From Sphingomonadales bacterium (GTDB lineage: Bacteria; Pseudomonadota; Alphaproteobacteria; Sphingomonadales; Kordiimonadaceae), in the NCBI GenBank assembly GCA_011088215.1, contig JAALKD010000002.1:1-64000 (forward strand): a DNA stretch of 64,000 nucleotides, read 5' to 3'. Both the position numbers and the translations under genes were made by a program. The notes beneath the pieces were generated by a model. That model was not told where the DNA came from and made no database searches. It saw nothing but the letters and a program-made list of their open reading frames with translations. Positions 17,818 to 29,100 of this stretch are shown here, one piece after another. Every line of letters begins with the position of its first letter. The stretch's first letter is position 1.

Positions 17818-18156
17818 TTACAAACCCATCATATTACGGCTATCTTTGGGAATAAATAACCGCATACCGTCAACTTTAGCGGTTGCCTCCACTTGGCAGC
17901 CGAGCCTTGAGGTTCTCTTTAGCCCGCTCGCCAAATCGAGCATTTCTTCCTCGTCTTCACTGGCCTTGGGCAACAGATCGAAGAATTTTTCCTCGACAAT
18001 CAAATGACAAGTCGAGCAGGCCATATTGCCCTCACATGCACCCTCAATATCAATACCTACAGACTGCGCCAATTCCAGAAGCGTTGTCCCCGCCGCGCCG
18101 GACACCGACGTCTCATCGCCATCGTGGTTCACGAAGATAACCGTCACATCGCTCAT
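17818..18156 (-). CDS. [2Fe-2S] ferredoxin, ISC/adrenodoxin type
   Basis: The 112-residue protein has the cluster ligands C-x5-C-x2-C in GACEGNMACSTCH and a fourth cysteine in SRLGCQV, the adrenodoxin-like spacing. Such ferredoxins (Fdx) supply electrons for iron-sulfur cluster assembly. The ATG at 18156 overlaps the desulfurase stop in the arrangement ATGA, which favours it over the ATG two codons upstream. Last gene of the desulfurase-desulfurase-fdx operon; its place behind two cysteine desulfurases supports a role in Fe-S assembly. Confidence 0.93.
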   Translation of the reverse strand: MSDVTVIFVNHDGDETSVSGAAGTTLLELAQSVGIDIEGACEGNMACSTCHLIVEEKFFDLLPKASEDEEEMLDLASGLKRTSRLGCQVEATAKVDGMRLFIPKDSRNMMGL

Positions 18157-19307
18157 GTGCATCCGCCTTGCTTAAATACGGCTTCGCTGATTTTTCCAAT
18201 CGCGAAATCTATTTCTTCGTCCGTCGTGAAACGGCCAATACCTAGTCTAAGTGAAGCCTTGGCATCTCTTACAGATAAGCCAATAGCATCCAAAACATAG
18301 GACGGACCAGCCACCGCAGACGCGCACGCCGCTCCGCTCGACACAGCAAGCCCACGGATGTCCGCAAACAGCCGATCACCGTCTAAACCAGGAAAGCATA
18401 CATTCAAATTTCCGGTCCACCGCATGTCAGTATGACCATTGATTTTCATTCCCGGTGCGGCGCTACCAAGGTCGCCTACAATGCGTTTCATCATGGTTAC
18501 CAATCGCCCCTGCTCCTGCGCCATTTCAGCAGCACATAAATCAGCAGCTTTGCCGAAGCCCGCCACTAGTGCAGGTGCCTGCGTACCCGCGCGCATACCG
18601 CCCTCTTGCCCGCCACCGTGCATTTGCGCCGCAATGGCTGTGTCTTTGCTTTGCCGCCGGTACAGAGCGCCGACACCTATAGGGCCGTATATCTTGTGCG
18701 CAGAAATGCTCATGAAATCGATGTTCATAGCCTCGACATCAATCGGTATTTTGCCATAGGCCTGCGCTGCATCAGTATGAAACAACGCTCCTCGCTCACG
18801 GCAAATCGCACCAATATTAGCCAACGGCTGAATAACACCGATTTCATTGTTTGCCGCCATAACTGACACGAGCGCCGTATCTTCACAGATGGCATCTTCC
18901 AGTTGGTCAAGGTCTATCAACCCGTCACTACCTACTGTCAGTGTAGTCAGCCGGTACCCCGCACGCTCACAAGCTGCTGCTGCTTCCAGTACGCATTTAT
19001 GTTCCGTTACGACAGTAATCAGGTGCGGCTTTACTGCACCCCAATGTTCCATCACGCCCTTAATCACCAAATTGTTGGCCTCAGTCGCACCGGATAGAAA
19101 GGTGATCGCCTCTGGCTTGGCAGCGATCACGCCTGCAACCTTTTCCCGCGCAACGTCAATCGCCGCATCAGCCTCCCAGCCAAATCTGTGTTCTGCAGAA
19201 TGCGGATTGCCGAATTTTTCGGTTAGATAGGGCATCATCGCCGCAAGTGCCCGCTCATCCAACGGCGTGGTTGATTGATAATCCATATATGCGAACTTAA
19301 CAGTCAT
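18153..19307 (-). CDS. Cysteine desulfurase, IscS-like (second of a tandem pair)
   Basis: This PLP enzyme removes sulfur from cysteine for Fe-S clusters or tRNA thiolation. The 384-residue protein has the PLP-lysine in SISAHKIYGP, the nearby HTDAAQAYGK, and the persulfide cysteine in the flexible loop SSGAACASAVAGPSYVL. It begins MTVKFAYMDYQSTTPLD, the IscS-type N-terminus. It overlaps fdx by 4 bp and the upstream desulfurase by 4 bp, so all three are translationally coupled. It is closer to IscS than its partner, which is more NifS-like. Confidence 0.92.
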   Translation of the reverse strand: MTVKFAYMDYQSTTPLDERALAAMMPYLTEKFGNPHSAEHRFGWEADAAIDVAREKVAGVIAAKPEAITFLSGATEANNLVIKGVMEHWGAVKPHLITVVTEHKCVLEAAAACERAGYRLTTLTVGSDGLIDLDQLEDAICEDTALVSVMAANNEIGVIQPLANIGAICRERGALFHTDAAQAYGKIPIDVEAMNIDFMSISAHKIYGPIGVGALYRRQSKDTAIAAQMHGGGQEGGMRAGTQAPALVAGFGKAADLCAAEMAQEQGRLVTMMKRIVGDLGSAAPGMKINGHTDMRWTGNLNVCFPGLDGDRLFADIRGLAVSSGAACASAVAGPSYVLDAIGLSVRDAKASLRLGIGRFTTDEEIDFAIGKISEAVFKQGGCT

Positions 19308-20431
19308 GCAATCGGCCGATCCGTTGTACGACCATAAAGGCTTTTCCAGGCAGTGATCAGCGCGTTTACATCACTGTCCTGAGTCATACGTCCCAACGAC
19401 ACCCGAATCGATGCGTATGCGGTTTCCTCGTCGTATCCCATCGCCGACAGCACATGCGACACCTTTACCTTGCCTGAAGAACATGCCGAGCCCGACGACA
19501 GACATATGCCGTTCAAATCAAAATGCATTACTTGAGTCTCACCTTTGACACCCGGCATGGCAACACAGCTGGTGTTCGGTGTGCGTGGCACAGCGCGGCC
19601 GATTATGCAGGCTGTGTTGGTGTGATCTGAAACGGCGGCCTCGAACCGGTCGCGCATAGCGGCGATTCGCGGTACTTCACCCAGGTCATCCATCGCCTCA
19701 AGCGCGGCAACACCGAACCCAACAATGCCTGCAACATTTTCTGTACCTGAACGGCGAGCAAGTTCCTGCCCACCGCCAGCAATCAGTGGCGCCAACGGCG
19801 CGGTCGGAGCGGTGATGATGGCCCCAACGCCTTGTGGACCACCGAGTTTATGGCTGGACAGCGTCAGATAATCCGCACCCAGCGCGTTGAAATCAATATT
19901 GATTTTCCCAGCTGCCTGTACCGCGTCGGTATGCAGACACGCTCCAAATTCGTGAACGATTTGCGCGATTTCCTGGACCGGTTGAATAACGCCAGTTTCG
20001 TTGTTGGCTAGCATAACCGACACCAATGCTGGTGAGGGAGACTCGGCAAGCAGAGCACGTAATTGGTCCTGGTTAATCACGCCATCGCTGTCCACACCGC
20101 AAACAAACATAGGTACGCCAGCAAGTTTAGCTGCCGCCAGAGCGCTATCATGCTCAATGGCCGAAACGATGACGCTGGCGGCCCCTGCCCCTCGAATAGC
20201 TGCATTATTAGCTTCGGTTCCGCCTGAGCAAAATGTCACGTCGCGAATTCTGCATCCGGCAAGCGCCGCTACCTTTGTGCGTGCCTCTTCCACCAATTTC
20301 CGAGCGCTGCGTCCCGCTGCGTGAACCGACGATGGGTTTCCAACCACGCGCATGGCATCGGTTACTGCGTCGATAACGCTGGTGCGAATCGGGGCAGTAG
20401 CATTGTAATCCATGTAGATCGGTGCGGTCAT
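19304..20431 (-). CDS. Cysteine desulfurase, NifS/IscS-like (first of a tandem pair)
   Basis: The 375-residue class V aminotransferase-fold protein has the PLP-lysine in TLSSHKLGGPQG, the aspartate of HTDAVQAAGK and the catalytic cysteine in SSGSACSSGKVKVSHVL. It differs clearly from the next gene, so the two are old paralogues and not a recent duplication. It is the first gene of the operon; the 161-bp gap to the divergent hydrolase gene should hold the promoters. No scaffold (iscU/sufU) or isc regulator is nearby. Confidence 0.9.
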   Translation of the reverse strand: MTAPIYMDYNATAPIRTSVIDAVTDAMRVVGNPSSVHAAGRSARKLVEEARTKVAALAGCRIRDVTFCSGGTEANNAAIRGAGAASVIVSAIEHDSALAAAKLAGVPMFVCGVDSDGVINQDQLRALLAESPSPALVSVMLANNETGVIQPVQEIAQIVHEFGACLHTDAVQAAGKINIDFNALGADYLTLSSHKLGGPQGVGAIITAPTAPLAPLIAGGGQELARRSGTENVAGIVGFGVAALEAMDDLGEVPRIAAMRDRFEAAVSDHTNTACIIGRAVPRTPNTSCVAMPGVKGETQVMHFDLNGICLSSGSACSSGKVKVSHVLSAMGYDEETAYASIRVSLGRMTQDSDVNALITAWKSLYGRTTDRPIA

Positions 20432-21273: not shown

Positions 21274-21786
21274 CTATGGCTGCTGTTCGTCCAACTCCAG
21301 AATCACGGCAACTCCCGCCGAAACAAAACCAATACCAAACAACATCCCGCTCACCGCGAAAGCAAACGGAGAGTGGGATAGGCTTGCCATAATTCCGGCC
21401 ACCAGCGCGGCCAACCAATATAGCGCCGCAGATTTCATCACTCCAACCCACAACATGGCAGCTGAAAGGCCAGCCAGGCCCACCAACAAAACTGCTGCAC
21501 CTAGTTGGTAAAGGTCTACACCCCACAAAGTTCGATCTGGACCTACGATGCTAGCAAGACCGACAACCGTCACTAGAAAACCGACCAAGCCCAGCCACCC
21601 CAACTTCTCGGCCTGCCTGAGGTAAATGGCAAACAGTCCTAGCAGCAGGCTTATGTCTATAAATCCGTAGAATATCTCCAGCCCCAGCACACCTTCGCTG
21701 TAGGGAATAAAACTAGAGATTACACGCGGCATGCCCCCCGCAATAGCAGCGAGCGCGCCGGTGTATAATAATATCCGGTATGTCAT
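21274..21786 (-). CDS. Integral membrane protein of unknown function, likely DUF4345-like
   Basis: The 170-residue protein is almost entirely hydrophobic, with about five or six membrane spans and little between them (WLGLVGFLVTVVGLASIVG, AAVLLVGLAGLSAAMLWVGVM and AAGIMASL-type segments). It may belong to the DUF4345 type but I cannot be sure. Its ATG overlaps the stop of the upstream VOC gene (ATGA), so the two are coupled, and both lie behind a SoxR-type promoter. Confidence 0.65.
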   Translation of the reverse strand: MTYRILLYTGALAAIAGGMPRVISSFIPYSEGVLGLEIFYGFIDISLLLGLFAIYLRQAEKLGWLGLVGFLVTVVGLASIVGPDRTLWGVDLYQLGAAVLLVGLAGLSAAMLWVGVMKSAALYWLAALVAGIMASLSHSPFAFAVSGMLFGIGFVSAGVAVILELDEQQP

Positions 21787-22175
21787 TTCGGATCAGCGTA
21801 GCTGATAACCTCAAACTCTATGCCGTCATTGTCGTAGAAGTAAAAGCGCCGGCCGGGCTCATAATTGCCATGGTTTTCCGGCGTATATCCGGCTGCAACA
21901 ACCTGCGCCTCGGTTTCATCCAGATCATCTACAACGATACCCACATGGTTCAAACCGCCCTTGACTTTATAACTTGAGGCCGTTGGGTCGCCCGGCGTCC
22001 CCACCGAATAAACCGCGAGATAACTGTCTTGTGTACCAACATGAACCGTGTAGCCTCCGTTCAAAGAAGGTCCTTGCCAACGTACCTTCCAACCGAACAG
22101 CCGCTCCATCATCGCAGCAGTCTGTTTGGGCTCGCTTACAGTTAAGTTTACATGTTCCAACATTGCGTTCGTCAT
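21783..22175 (-). CDS. VOC (glyoxalase-like) family protein, predicted SoxR target
   Basis: The ~130-residue protein has two half-domains of the vicinal-oxygen-chelate fold: LEHVNLTVSEPKQTAAMMERLFGWKVRW and LNHVGIVVDDLDETEAQVVAAGY, ending YFYDNDGIEFEVISY. Histidine and glutamate at the usual metal positions are present. The ATG at 22175 has a GAGG site 7-8 bp upstream; a longer start at 22232 would run into the regulatory region. It is divergent from soxR and its promoter contains the SoxR-box-like dyad, which suggests redox-responsive expression. Confidence 0.82.
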   Translation of the reverse strand: MTNAMLEHVNLTVSEPKQTAAMMERLFGWKVRWQGPSLNGGYTVHVGTQDSYLAVYSVGTPGDPTASSYKVKGGLNHVGIVVDDLDETEAQVVAAGYTPENHGNYEPGRRFYFYDNDGIEFEVISYADPK

Positions 22176-22208
22176 TTTCTTATCCTCTTTCAACCGAAGT
22201 TTTTTCTT

Positions 22209-22256
22209 GATTTTCTTAACGTAATTGCTCAACCTTACTTGAGGTCAAGCTATTTT
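22209..22256 (-). promoter_or_regulatory. SoxR-type promoter between soxR and the VOC operon
   Basis: The dyad GCTCAAC-CTTA-CTTGAGG (22227-22244) closely matches the SoxR box CCTCAAG-TTAA-CTTGAGG. On the minus strand it lies between a -35 TTGACC and a weak -10 TACGTT with a 19-bp spacer, the overlong spacing that MerR-family activators correct. This fits activation of the VOC-membrane-protein operon by SoxR, with the same site covering the soxR promoter region. Confidence 0.65.
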
Positions 22257-22275
22257 TTTAAATTTGAGATTTTAT

Positions 22276-22746
22276 ATGAAACGACCAACAGATTTGCTTT
22301 CAATCGGCCAGTTGGCAGACCGAACAGGTCTTTCGGTCTCAGCCATACGTTTTTACGAAACCAAAGGCCTTGTCGCGCCAACGAGAAACCAAGGCGGCCA
22401 GCGCCGTTTTCACCGGTCAGATATTCGCAGGCTTTCGTTTGTCATGATTGCCCAGCAATTGGGCTTGCCAATCCGCGACATTGTCTCTGCCCTCGCAACC
22501 TTGCCACAGGGGGGCGCGCCAACCCAAAAAGACTGGACAAGAATTAGTAGAGAGGTTCGCGACGAGTTAGACAAACGTATCGACGCATTAATCCGCTCAC
22601 GCAAGAATTTGGATGGCTGCATTGGCTGCGGATGTCTGTCGCTAAAAAAATGCACCCTATACAACCCGGATGACAAAGCCAGCGCACTGGGAGCAGGCCC
22701 CCACTATGCTATTGGAAATCGGCGCGAACCAAACACGGCCCGCTAG
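22276..22746 (+). CDS. soxR: Redox-sensing transcriptional regulator SoxR
   Basis: SoxR is a MerR-family activator that senses redox-cycling compounds through a [2Fe-2S] cluster. The ~156-residue protein has the winged-helix start LLSIGQLADRTGLSVSAIRFYETKGL and the cluster motif C-x2-C-x-C-x5-C in GCIGCGCLSLKKC near residues 116-127. The ATG at 22276 is preferred to the upstream TTG at 22264. In Alphaproteobacteria SoxR usually activates nearby transport or detoxification genes and not soxS (established); here the target is probably the divergent VOC-membrane-protein pair. Confidence 0.92.
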   Translation: MKRPTDLLSIGQLADRTGLSVSAIRFYETKGLVAPTRNQGGQRRFHRSDIRRLSFVMIAQQLGLPIRDIVSALATLPQGGAPTQKDWTRISREVRDELDKRIDALIRSRKNLDGCIGCGCLSLKKCTLYNPDDKASALGAGPHYAIGNRREPNTAR

Positions 22747-26183: not shown

Positions 26184-29100
26184 CCCTCATCGCCCCCGCT
26201 GGGGTCCAAGGGGTCACCAGTTTCTTCAGGTGTTTGATCTGCAGCAGGTGCTTCCACGTCCGCGACACGACCCTTGCGACCTTCGAACAACAATCGTAAA
26301 AAACCTGGTGCAAGCCCAGACAGCGCATTCACACTCACATCTGGTTCTTCCGTCGTGCCTTTAACCCTGTAAGCTACGCCAAACAGGCCTTTGCCATCAC
26401 CGCCTGAAAACAAACCGCCAACCAGAGGTATATTTCCCAGCAGCGAATTGATGCCGTAGGCTGGCACCACAACACCGTTTACATTTATCAGCCCATCAAT
26501 AGTGGCAATTTCACCCTCCATGGTCAGACCGACCGTGGGACCATTAGCCTTAATTCCACTGAACTCTATGATGCGACCATCATATTCAAACGGAACTTCA
26601 AGTACGTCCAATTGTAGCGGTTTTCCGTCTAAATAGTCATCGAGTCCCGAAATCTCGCCTCTGGTTATTCCCTCGCCCAAAGTAGCCTTGGGTACTAATG
26701 TCGCCTCACTGACATTCATCTTGCCATCAAGATGCCATTCCTCACCCCAACCGCGGGTGCGAGCATCCAATGTAAGTGTCCCCCCCTCGACATGGGCGAA
26801 AAAGCCCATGCCACGCAACACACGGCCTCCGTCATCAGTTCGCACACTGAATGGACGAGTTCCATCAACAGAGTCTGGATCATTACGAACTGAAATATTA
26901 ATGGGTGTCTTGGCTTCTCCCGTAACAGCGTCAAGGGTCAACATGTTAGGTTGGCCTTCCCGAAATTCCAGTTCAAGTGAAGCATCATCCCATTGCTCCG
27001 TATTTTCTAACAATATCCGGTCAGCGGACAACGAAAGATCAAATTCAGTTGCAGGTTTGTTGACCGGAATATTGGCACCGTGATCTTGTGCGCGAACGGC
27101 ATTCTCGTCTGGTCGTAAAAATGGAGAAAGGTCAAACTCCTCGGCCTGTACATCAATTTCCATTGGCCTCCCAGCCTGCTGATCTAACGTGGCGATCAAC
27201 TGATTTGCACCAACCTGCCGGGCCTGAATTTCTGCGTCAAATATACCGCTATCTTTCGGGCCAAAGTTGATACTTGCAACCAAATCAATATCTTCACCCT
27301 TTACAAGTAGAGGCGCTACTGTAGTTCCACCGTCGGAGAAAACCACGCCGCCGTTTATCGTTGCAGGTGCACCAATCGGTTTCGACCATGCCAGTTGCGG
27401 CAGGTGTAACTGAGCGGTCGAGGCATCAGCGGTAAAAGTTCCATGGGAAAATTTGAAATTTCGCCCTTGAAACGACGCTTCGGCGTGTGCTTTACCCTCG
27501 AGAAAATCGTCAACATCCACGCCCAGTGCTTTGGTGTCTTCTGCATCCATATCACCGCGCAGCACAACCAAAGTTGTATCCGCAGATGGATCATCGCGGC
27601 CAGCAGCAAAATCTTCTTCCCAGCGCAAGGCCACTGGCACGCCGTTCAAGAGACCGTTGCCCGCCGCACTCAAACGGTCCCGGCTAACCCTCAACGACAA
27701 TTGAGCCCCGGACAGGCCTTCGCCCCCCAACAAATCTTTGACCGATGTGTTTGCCAATTCGGCAGTTACGTCGTAGGTCGTGCTGCCAGGCGGCGGTTTG
27801 GCAATTAATGGGCTGCGCACAATTGCCTTAACCGTGGCAGTACCATCCAACCTGTCAATATCGAGATTCGCTTTTTGGGCTACCAAAAGTGGTGGATAAT
27901 CAATCAATCGCATCAGGTTTTTTACATCGCCTCGAGCGAATATACTAAACTCGCCGACCCCCTTGTCGCGAACATGAATATCGCTAAGCCTTACTTCGCT
28001 GCCGCCAACCGGCATGCCCAAAAGCTGGCCCTCAGCGATTGAAATTGTCAGGCCTGTTCGCGTTAACACGGCAGCGCCAGCCGCCCCGACAATCGGCGGC
28101 ATAGTCTTGATAAATTTGGAATCCAGTCCGCCAAAATCGAAAGTTAGCTCATAAATGCTTTCGTTCAGGTACGCCCCCATGCCAGACGGCGCTGCATCTA
28201 CCCGAAAGCTCAAATTTGTAGTGGTACCTGTAACCATATGCTGATCAATCCAGGCCCGCGCGCCGCGCTCCCGCCCATCTGGATGGCGCTCGATTGGCCA
28301 ACAATCCAAAGCATCCATAACCGACAGATCTGTCGTTTTCAATTCAAGTTGGACGCCAGGAATGTTGCTGGTTTGATGCCAATATAACAACCCGTTGCCT
28401 GTCACTTGGTTATCCTCAAGTGTTAGGTCAATCTGGTCAAAAACCAATATTTTTTCACGTGCATTATATGTTCCAATAATCGCACCAAACGTAACAGGCG
28501 CCGGCATTGGAAATACCGCGGGATCATAAATCTCGCCCTCGCCTAACGTCGCTTCAATGTTAGCTGACCGCAATCCAACGCCAGCATCAATATCCAGATT
28601 AAGGCTGAGATCAATCGGCAATTGAAAATACTTAAGCTGCTTGGGTAGACCCGCTTCCGCCGGAAAAGATGATGGATAAAAGTCCTTCAGGGAGGCCAGA
28701 AGTGACAAATCACCCCTTGTAGGGTTCGCACGTCCCAAAAGCTGGGTTTTGATTGGGTTACCACCCACCGAGGCCTCAAGCTGGGCTGACAAATCAATCT
28801 CGGCACCATCCTGTTGCAACACAAATGTAGAAACAGACAAGCGGCCTTCCGATAAGTTATCGCCTCTGTATAGGCGTACCGACATTTTATCAAAAGCAAC
28901 GCGTTCCAACGACGGTGCAGTTGCCAGTAGTCGCAACGCAAAACGGTTAAATGCCTCAGTTAACGGTATAAAAATTTCCGGTCTCGGTATCCCGCTTTCG
29001 CCGAACAGGTCTTTGAACAAACTATCGTCAGTCGTATCACTAAAACCGCCGAGGTCAGATATTCTGATATCTGCGCGGCCAATTTCTACAGTTGAAACCC

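Follow-up and report, generated by a model that had tools for sequence, protein, structure and literature searches.

A SoxR box in the promoter of a VOC-family gene that accompanies soxR across a bacterial order

The soxR–VOC locus and its promoter

The window, a 64,000-nucleotide stretch of the genome of a Sphingomonadales bacterium, contains a gene for a [2Fe-2S] MerR-family regulator, soxR, on the plus strand (22279..22746; ATG at 22279, stop codon ending at 22746, with an in-frame TTG at 22264 in the ORF reading). Its product scored 189.4 bits with TIGR01950, the SoxR equivalog model (cut-off 116.9), and was the only match over that cut-off in the whole 4.0-Mb genome. It aligned with E. 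coli SoxR (2zhg; E = 8.9e-39) over residues 5–141, with the four cluster cysteines matched, and the cluster motif CxxCxCxxxxxC is present as CIGCGCLSLKKC. This motif was found in 154 of the 155 SoxR rows of our alignment, the row without it being that of G268. The equivalog score and the cysteine motif thus bear out the identification of this gene as SoxR in the initial annotation.

Divergent from soxR, on the minus strand, lies a gene for a 130-aa protein of the VOC superfamily (21783..22175; ATG at 22175, stop ending at 21783), followed on the same strand by a gene for a hydrophobic, all-helical membrane protein of 170 aa (21274..21786), which belongs to no Pfam or NCBIfam family. The stop of the VOC gene and the start of the membrane-protein gene share 4 bp, ATGA, at 21786–21783, confirming the overlap first read there. 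An Rfam search of the window gave no match, and a search for related loci among genome contigs returned two loci. Near the operon, at 17818–20431, two adjacent cysteine-desulfurase-like genes and a ferredoxin-like gene (named by reading) form a neighbourhood that is kept in several relatives. An extra gene lies between soxR and anmK in two relatives (L026, 5163–6278; L028, 5016–6119); judged by eye, it is nitroreductase-like with a Tat-type start.

The VOC promoter, on the minus strand, has a −35 hexamer TTGACC (22243..22248) and a −10 hexamer TACGTT (22218..22223) at 19-bp spacing. Between them lies the SoxR box, an 18-bp dyad that reads CCTCAAGTAAGGTTGAGC on the minus strand and GCTCAAC-CTTA-CTTGAGG on the plus strand (22227–22244); its first two bases are the last two of TTGACC. 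Compared with the CCTCAAG-N4-CTTGAGG type of dyad it has two mismatches of 14. A dyad between −35 and −10 elements spaced 19 bp apart is the MerR-family activation geometry that had been proposed for this promoter, and the sequence agrees with it. The −10 element is weak, matching at 3 of 6 positions, as it likewise does in 69 of the 126 related loci described below. Our generic promoter scan covers spacers of 16–18 bp, which puts the VOC promoter outside its reach.

Against CTCAAG-N4-CTTGAG, the inner 16 bases of the dyad differ at one position, and the window holds two further places that match with two mismatches. These three sites compare with 2.17 expected in shuffles, so the dyad of the window would by itself prove little. 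In the 4.0-Mb genome, exact CTCAA-N6-TTGAG cores were listed at two places, the VOC promoter and window position 27690, the latter inside a 1085-aa reading frame. Allowing up to one mismatch gave 76 genome sites, vs. 52 for the backward control pattern, and a TTGA start was absent from the four of these near-match sites that were examined (L222–L225), so that further SoxR targets may exist among the rest.

Pairing of soxR with the VOC gene and retention of the box

The initial annotation had considered a VOC gene not to be a usual SoxR target, a view that does not hold in the order. SoxR was present in 129 of 296 genomes sampled from the order and a VOC match, counted at E up to 1e-8, in 122, of which 120 were of the window type (E = 3.1e-34 or lower) and two more distant (G006 and G028; E = 3.7e-13 and 9.3e-16). 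Every one of these 122 genomes has a SoxR, and in 120 of them the two genes are divergently adjacent, so that 120 of the 129 SoxR genomes have a VOC gene as divergent partner. Seven SoxR genomes had no VOC match, and at this threshold neither did any of the 167 genomes that lack SoxR. Fisher's test for the co-occurrence gave 1.6e-75, a value that ignores kinship within the order and overstates independence. In the sampled order the VOC gene is the usual partner of SoxR, and it is probably also the main SoxR target there.

This pairing was also seen at closer range. In a family sample of 29 genomes, 13 had a SoxR over the cut-off, and every strong VOC match, ten in all (E = 1.2e-42 or lower), adjoined a SoxR. 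Within the genus of the window, nine genomes have both genes; the other ten, of which G014 and G016 are less than 90% complete, have no SoxR above the cut-off, and their only VOC matches are two weak ones at E = 7.5e-5 and 5.6e-4. Of 270 genomes sampled from the class, 27 had SoxR and 15 a VOC match. Eleven of these matches were strong (E = 1.1e-40 or lower), all in SoxR genomes, with nine genes divergent from soxR, one convergent with it (G531) and one on another contig (G559); the other four were weak relatives (E = 3.7e-9 to 4.3e-18) in genomes without SoxR. The window-type VOC gene therefore occurs in only 11 of the 27 SoxR genomes of the class sample, and since the other 16 are without it, the pairing is the rule in the order and not in the class. 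A phylum sample of 209 genomes gave 18 VOC matches, among them a strong one from outside the class (G573; E = 2.8e-44) with a divergent SoxR next to it. In Ruegeria sp. TM1040, an annotated soxR stands beside a 'VOC family protein'.

We then placed the pairing on a SoxR tree (FastTree, 156 SoxRs, rooted on E. coli), a quick tree that came with a long-branch warning from the program. The 124 SoxRs that pair with a window-type VOC all fell in one clade of 127 with local support of 98; the other three members (G053, G116 and G177) are without VOC. The VOC-pairing label changed 4 times on this tree vs. 29.4 times in shuffles. SoxR and VOC identities correlated over the 124 pairs with r = 0.60, a value reached in 0 of 500 permutations; shared descent contributes to this correlation.

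Conservation of the box was followed in 126 loci, comprising 118 of the 120 adjacent pairs of the order (including the distant-type G006 and G028), seven from the class sample and one MAG (L008), and the best-matching site of each intergenic stretch was counted. This site had 0 to 5 mismatches of 14, with three or fewer in 111 loci; TTGA stands directly before it in 122 of the 126, and the second base of the −10 element at 19 bp is A in all 126. TTGA followed by a dyad with at most 4 of 14 mismatches was found in 120 of the 126 promoters and nowhere else in 1,040,432 strand-bases of the same loci. The two remaining adjacent pairs of the order (G166 and G168) have TTGA and a dyad with 4 and 2 mismatches, respectively, and the box is present outside the class in G573 (4 mismatches). 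The genome-wide core counts, together with the register of TTGA and box across the 126 loci, rule out a chance dyad.

The box is also kept where a VOC gene of the window type stands apart from soxR, in all four cases found. In three of these (G060, G184 and G559), TTGA, box and 19-bp spacing lie upstream, with 2, 3 and 4 mismatches; in the fourth (G724), which has no SoxR within 1.5 kb, TTTA precedes a box with one mismatch. The distance from box to VOC match is 43 to 49 bases in the four. Where the two genes converge (G531), the box stands before the VOC gene. No box in promoter register was found within 450 bases of the four weak VOC relatives in SoxR-less genomes (L139–L142), and none in register at two VOC relatives outside the class (L242 and L244). 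Because the box is kept in register at VOC genes apart from or convergent with soxR, and is absent at the relatives in SoxR-less genomes, it belongs to the VOC promoter. This conservation strongly supports the earlier proposal that SoxR acts on the VOC gene through the box; judged from the comparison of promoters, SoxR very probably controls this gene.

The VOC protein, the genes behind it and other SoxR partners

The VOC protein matched PF00903 with 40.3 bits (cut-off 20.6; E = 4.9e-10), which places it in the VOC superfamily, and its structure model (pLDDT 87) came closest in fold to 2rk0 (Z 14.4; rmsd 2.5 over 123 residues). His8, Asn10, Trp29, Arg32, His45, His77, Tyr112 and Glu120 are invariant in the 124 paired VOC proteins, and Glu122 is kept in 123, the remaining one being cut by a contig end. 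In an alignment to solved VOC proteins, the counterparts of His8, His77 and Glu122 are His, His and Glu, at what we take to be the usual VOC metal-ligand positions. (L127, L139, L141, L033 and L034 were left out of 65 representatives in alignment A3.) Glyoxalase I has four metal ligands, His/Glu/His/Glu. Residues 52–57 of the window protein (YLAVYS) hold no acid at the strand of the fourth glyoxalase I ligand, and at position 54 the 124 proteins have either Ala (117) or Ser (7). With His8, His77 and Glu122 present and the fourth ligand absent, a 2-His-1-carboxylate set remains, which is the type of the extradiol dioxygenases and FosA; the positions of this 2-His-1-Glu facial triad are conserved and are placed from alignment only.

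Models of named VOC families all stayed far under their cut-offs: glyoxalase I (GloA), the best NCBIfam match, with 24.5 bits vs. 165, two FosA-type models with 13.7 of 250 and 12.9 of 180 bits, and catechol 2,3-dioxygenase (TIGR03211) with 12.8 bits vs. 320.2. Thus, the protein belongs to an unnamed subfamily. Fold comparison gave Z values of 13.9 for glyoxalase I, 13.0 for the drug-binding TnmS3, and 12.8 for both the ChaP oxidase and a homogentisate dioxygenase entry, values too close to separate glyoxalase, dioxygenase and drug-binding VOC proteins. The initial annotation had suggested a unit for detoxification and export. SoxR control and the conserved metal-type site make detoxification plausible, and on balance we favor a metal enzyme acting on redox-cycling compounds, whose substrates would probably be quinone-like; the export half of the suggestion found no support.

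The membrane protein was modeled as all helical (pLDDT 88.7; hydropathy peak 2.2). No transporter family was found for it in Pfam or NCBIfam, no family was matched by more than one of the 13 members searched, with E = 1 as the limit (the best of these scattered one-member matches being an ectoine-dehydratase model at E = 0.004), and no solved relative was found by sequence. Its best fold row, the SatP acetate channel at Z 9.2, falls within the noise range given for helical bundles. These family, solved-relative and fold searches turned up no transporter signature and so do not establish export as a function of this protein, which is in our view improbable. The protein occurs in 7 of the 296 genomes of the order sample and follows the VOC gene immediately in 5 of the 122 genomes that have one (G000, G021, G024, G026 and G280, the last from another family), so that a conserved trio of SoxR, VOC and membrane protein, as had been envisaged, is ruled out and the membrane protein is accessory. 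In G014 and G017, which have no SoxR over the cut-off, it stands beside a different VOC gene. Seven of the 270 class-sample genomes, the own genome included, have the protein. A questin-oxidase-like gene (PF14027) lies beside it in G304, G417, G520 and, barely over the cut-off, G437, and other genes in G299 and G385; questin oxidase opens an anthraquinone ring. No convincing box was found near the questin-type or other-VOC copies, where one 5-mismatch site (in L229) was seen. By guilt by association, these neighbors point to quinone chemistry rather than export.

A different second gene is more frequent. In 43 of the 126 loci (including L194, L192, L202, L186 and L201), an ORF starting MN(E/D) lies directly behind the VOC gene, with a start 4 or 8 bases ahead of the VOC stop's end. 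Of these, about 40 continue (P/I)(I/L/M)(L/P)R(E/R)P(M/L)F, with R at position 7 in 40, P at 9 in 38 and F at 11 in 40, and the remainder of the ORF diverges. Third codon positions vary most, so the ORF looks coding, and it is a probable microprotein of the SoxR operon; its first codons overlap the VOC gene, and the conservation may partly be that of VOC. Other arrangements were noticed in the same place. In Ruegeria TM1040 a small ORF overlaps the VOC end (L247, 3356–3511). A gene starting MSDDIK..FWK follows VOC in seven genomes of one genus (L083, L087, L088, L090, L091, L216 and L219), and a 60-residue piece of one product gave a weak match, under the cut-off, to PF16242 (pyridoxamine-5'-phosphate-oxidase-like). 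Behind the full VOC gene of G559, three overlapping frames (L133, 1501–2352) match the C-terminal half of the VOC profile, as if the 3' part of the gene had been repeated in tandem.

SoxR has other partners where the window-type VOC gene is missing. Of 29 such loci, the divergent genes of 10 were run against Pfam. Those of transport type were MFS proteins (two), an outer-membrane efflux protein and a membrane-fusion protein, and the further ones encode DoxX, an FMN reductase, a metallo-beta-lactamase fold, a rubredoxin-like protein, another VOC (G479) and a questin-oxidase-like protein with a 4-mismatch box before its gene (G385). Other VOC types adjoin SoxR in G006 and G028 as well as in G479; in the first two the box is identical to the E. 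coli box. Outside the class, in G646 and G723, a box precedes a weakly related VOC gene that has no adjacent SoxR. These cases suggest that VOC proteins passed under SoxR control on more than one occasion. One genome without a VOC match (G003) has two SoxR genes (L038 and L039), whose divergent genes, for an outer-membrane efflux protein in one case and an MFS protein in the other, both have a box with two mismatches.

A proposed one-promoter regulon, its alternatives and known SoxR systems

We propose, with a probability of roughly 0.6, that the locus is a one-promoter SoxR regulon whose VOC metal enzyme disposes of the inducer. Reduced SoxR would sit on the dyad within the over-long 19-bp spacer of the VOC promoter. 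A redox-cycling compound would oxidize its [2Fe-2S] cluster, and oxidized SoxR would twist the promoter into a form readable by RNA polymerase, after which the VOC gene and the coupled membrane-protein gene would be made. The VOC protein, most likely a 2-His-1-carboxylate metal-dependent enzyme, would then remove the inducer chemically, either oxidizing its ring or modifying it in a thiol-dependent reaction; the inducer itself would probably be an aromatic of quinone or hydroquinone type. As for the membrane protein, it would be a lineage-specific helper of quinone-handling enzymes and not part of the core. A bolder form of this proposal, which we put forward only tentatively, is that the core SoxR task in the order is to run one VOC metal oxygenase that destroys the oxidant of SoxR, a closed sense-and-destroy loop rather than a stress regulon; the loop would be the nearly inseparable pair, with lineage-specific second genes behind it (the membrane partner here, the microprotein in about 40 of the 126 loci).

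Alternatively, the VOC protein could be a thiol transferase or a glyoxalase-like lyase acting on glutathione adducts or on reactive carbonyls that arise under redox stress. Structures of glyoxalase I, FosA and FosX align well with the model (Z 11.5 to 13.9), and His/His/Glu is also the FosA ligand set; with bit scores so far below the glyoxalase I and FosA cut-offs (24.5 of 165; 12.9 of 180 and 13.7 of 250) and with residues 52–57 lacking the acid of the fourth glyoxalase I ligand, we consider such an activity unlikely. The protein could also sequester a redox-active compound unchanged, like the enediyne- and bleomycin-binding VOC proteins, in which case the membrane protein may help to expel it. 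The antibiotic-binding TnmS1-3 and TioX are among its fold neighbors, and MFS and RND-type efflux parts stand beside other SoxRs of the class. Sequestration needs no His/His/Glu set, however, and yet that set is kept in the 124 paired proteins (Glu in 123, one being truncated), while expulsion would fall to a membrane protein that has no transporter signature and is missing from most loci, which leaves this reading rather improbable.

Finally, the box might serve only the autoregulation of soxR, with the VOC gene a bystander. In the accessible part of PMC4411124, the box represses soxR in Stenotrophomonas. In the window the soxR start codon lies 34 bases past the end of the dyad, which makes repression of soxR by the box probable, and by analogy with Stenotrophomonas the box may well have this role in addition. 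As its sole role, autoregulation does not explain why the box keeps to the VOC-promoter register (TTGA in 122 and the −10 A in 126 of 126 loci) or stays with VOC genes that are apart from soxR (four of four found) or convergent with it (G531); this retention rules the reading out save for a negligible residual chance.

E. coli SoxR activates soxS, a second regulator. The locus described here is like E. coli SoxR–SoxS in regulator family, 18-bp box and promoter geometry, and unlike it in that the target is an enzyme-type gene. A closer parallel in layout comes from Stenotrophomonas maltophilia. According to the portion of PMC4411124 available to us, which also gives the E. coli SoxR box sequence, SoxR-activated promoters hold the dyad in a 19-bp spacer, S. 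maltophilia responds to redox-cycling drugs, and its soxR lies head to head with one target, mfsA, over one shared dyad. As far as that portion goes, the two systems share the divergent single target, the shared dyad and the 19-bp spacer, whereas the target there is an MFS exporter and here a VOC gene with, in few lineages, a small membrane protein. In the part of PMC4146615 at hand, the SoxRs of Streptomyces and Pseudomonas directly control a few genes, which encode redox enzymes and transporters presumed to work on redox-active compounds. A target that may act on redox-active compounds is common to these regulons and ours; theirs have several targets, with no VOC gene found in that part of the source, and here one divergent operon is proposed.

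In Bacillus and Staphylococcus, quinone-sensing repressors drive ring-cleaving dioxygenases, as described in the part of PMC6798810 that we used, where the title of a cited paper speaks of dioxygenases/glyoxalases; that the dioxygenases of the MhqR, YodB and QsrR regulons are VOC-type is our own gloss. Our proposal resembles these regulons, within what that part covers, in linking a quinone-responsive regulator to ring-cleaving dioxygenases, a likeness drawn without comparing enzyme sequences. It differs in that MhqR, YodB and QsrR are repressors with thiol or pocket sensing, whereas the regulator here is a [2Fe-2S] MerR-type activator.

The regulator, the box and the geometry are thus already known, and so is a SoxR with one divergent target (mfsA). 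An order-wide, nearly exclusive SoxR–VOC unit did not appear in the literature that we searched, which was mostly outside subscription journals, and no SoxR–VOC regulon was found there. A 2008 study reportedly surveyed SoxR targets and may list VOC genes. Such a regulon is likewise absent from the accessible portions of PMC8859910, PMC4219479 and PMC13210998; in that of PMC4219479, a glyoxalase-family gene of Sphingomonas wittichii, Swit_3298, is a match in a salt-stress reporter screen and is unlinked to SoxR.

Outside enteric bacteria the targets of SoxR vary from species to species, and its role there has stayed open. A direct handle on that role comes from an enzyme-type gene that, among the 296 genomes sampled, was found only in company with SoxR. 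Once found, the substrate of the VOC protein would probably reveal the natural SoxR signal in a large group of environmental bacteria, and two uncharacterised families, the VOC subfamily and the membrane protein, become testable parts of redox defense.
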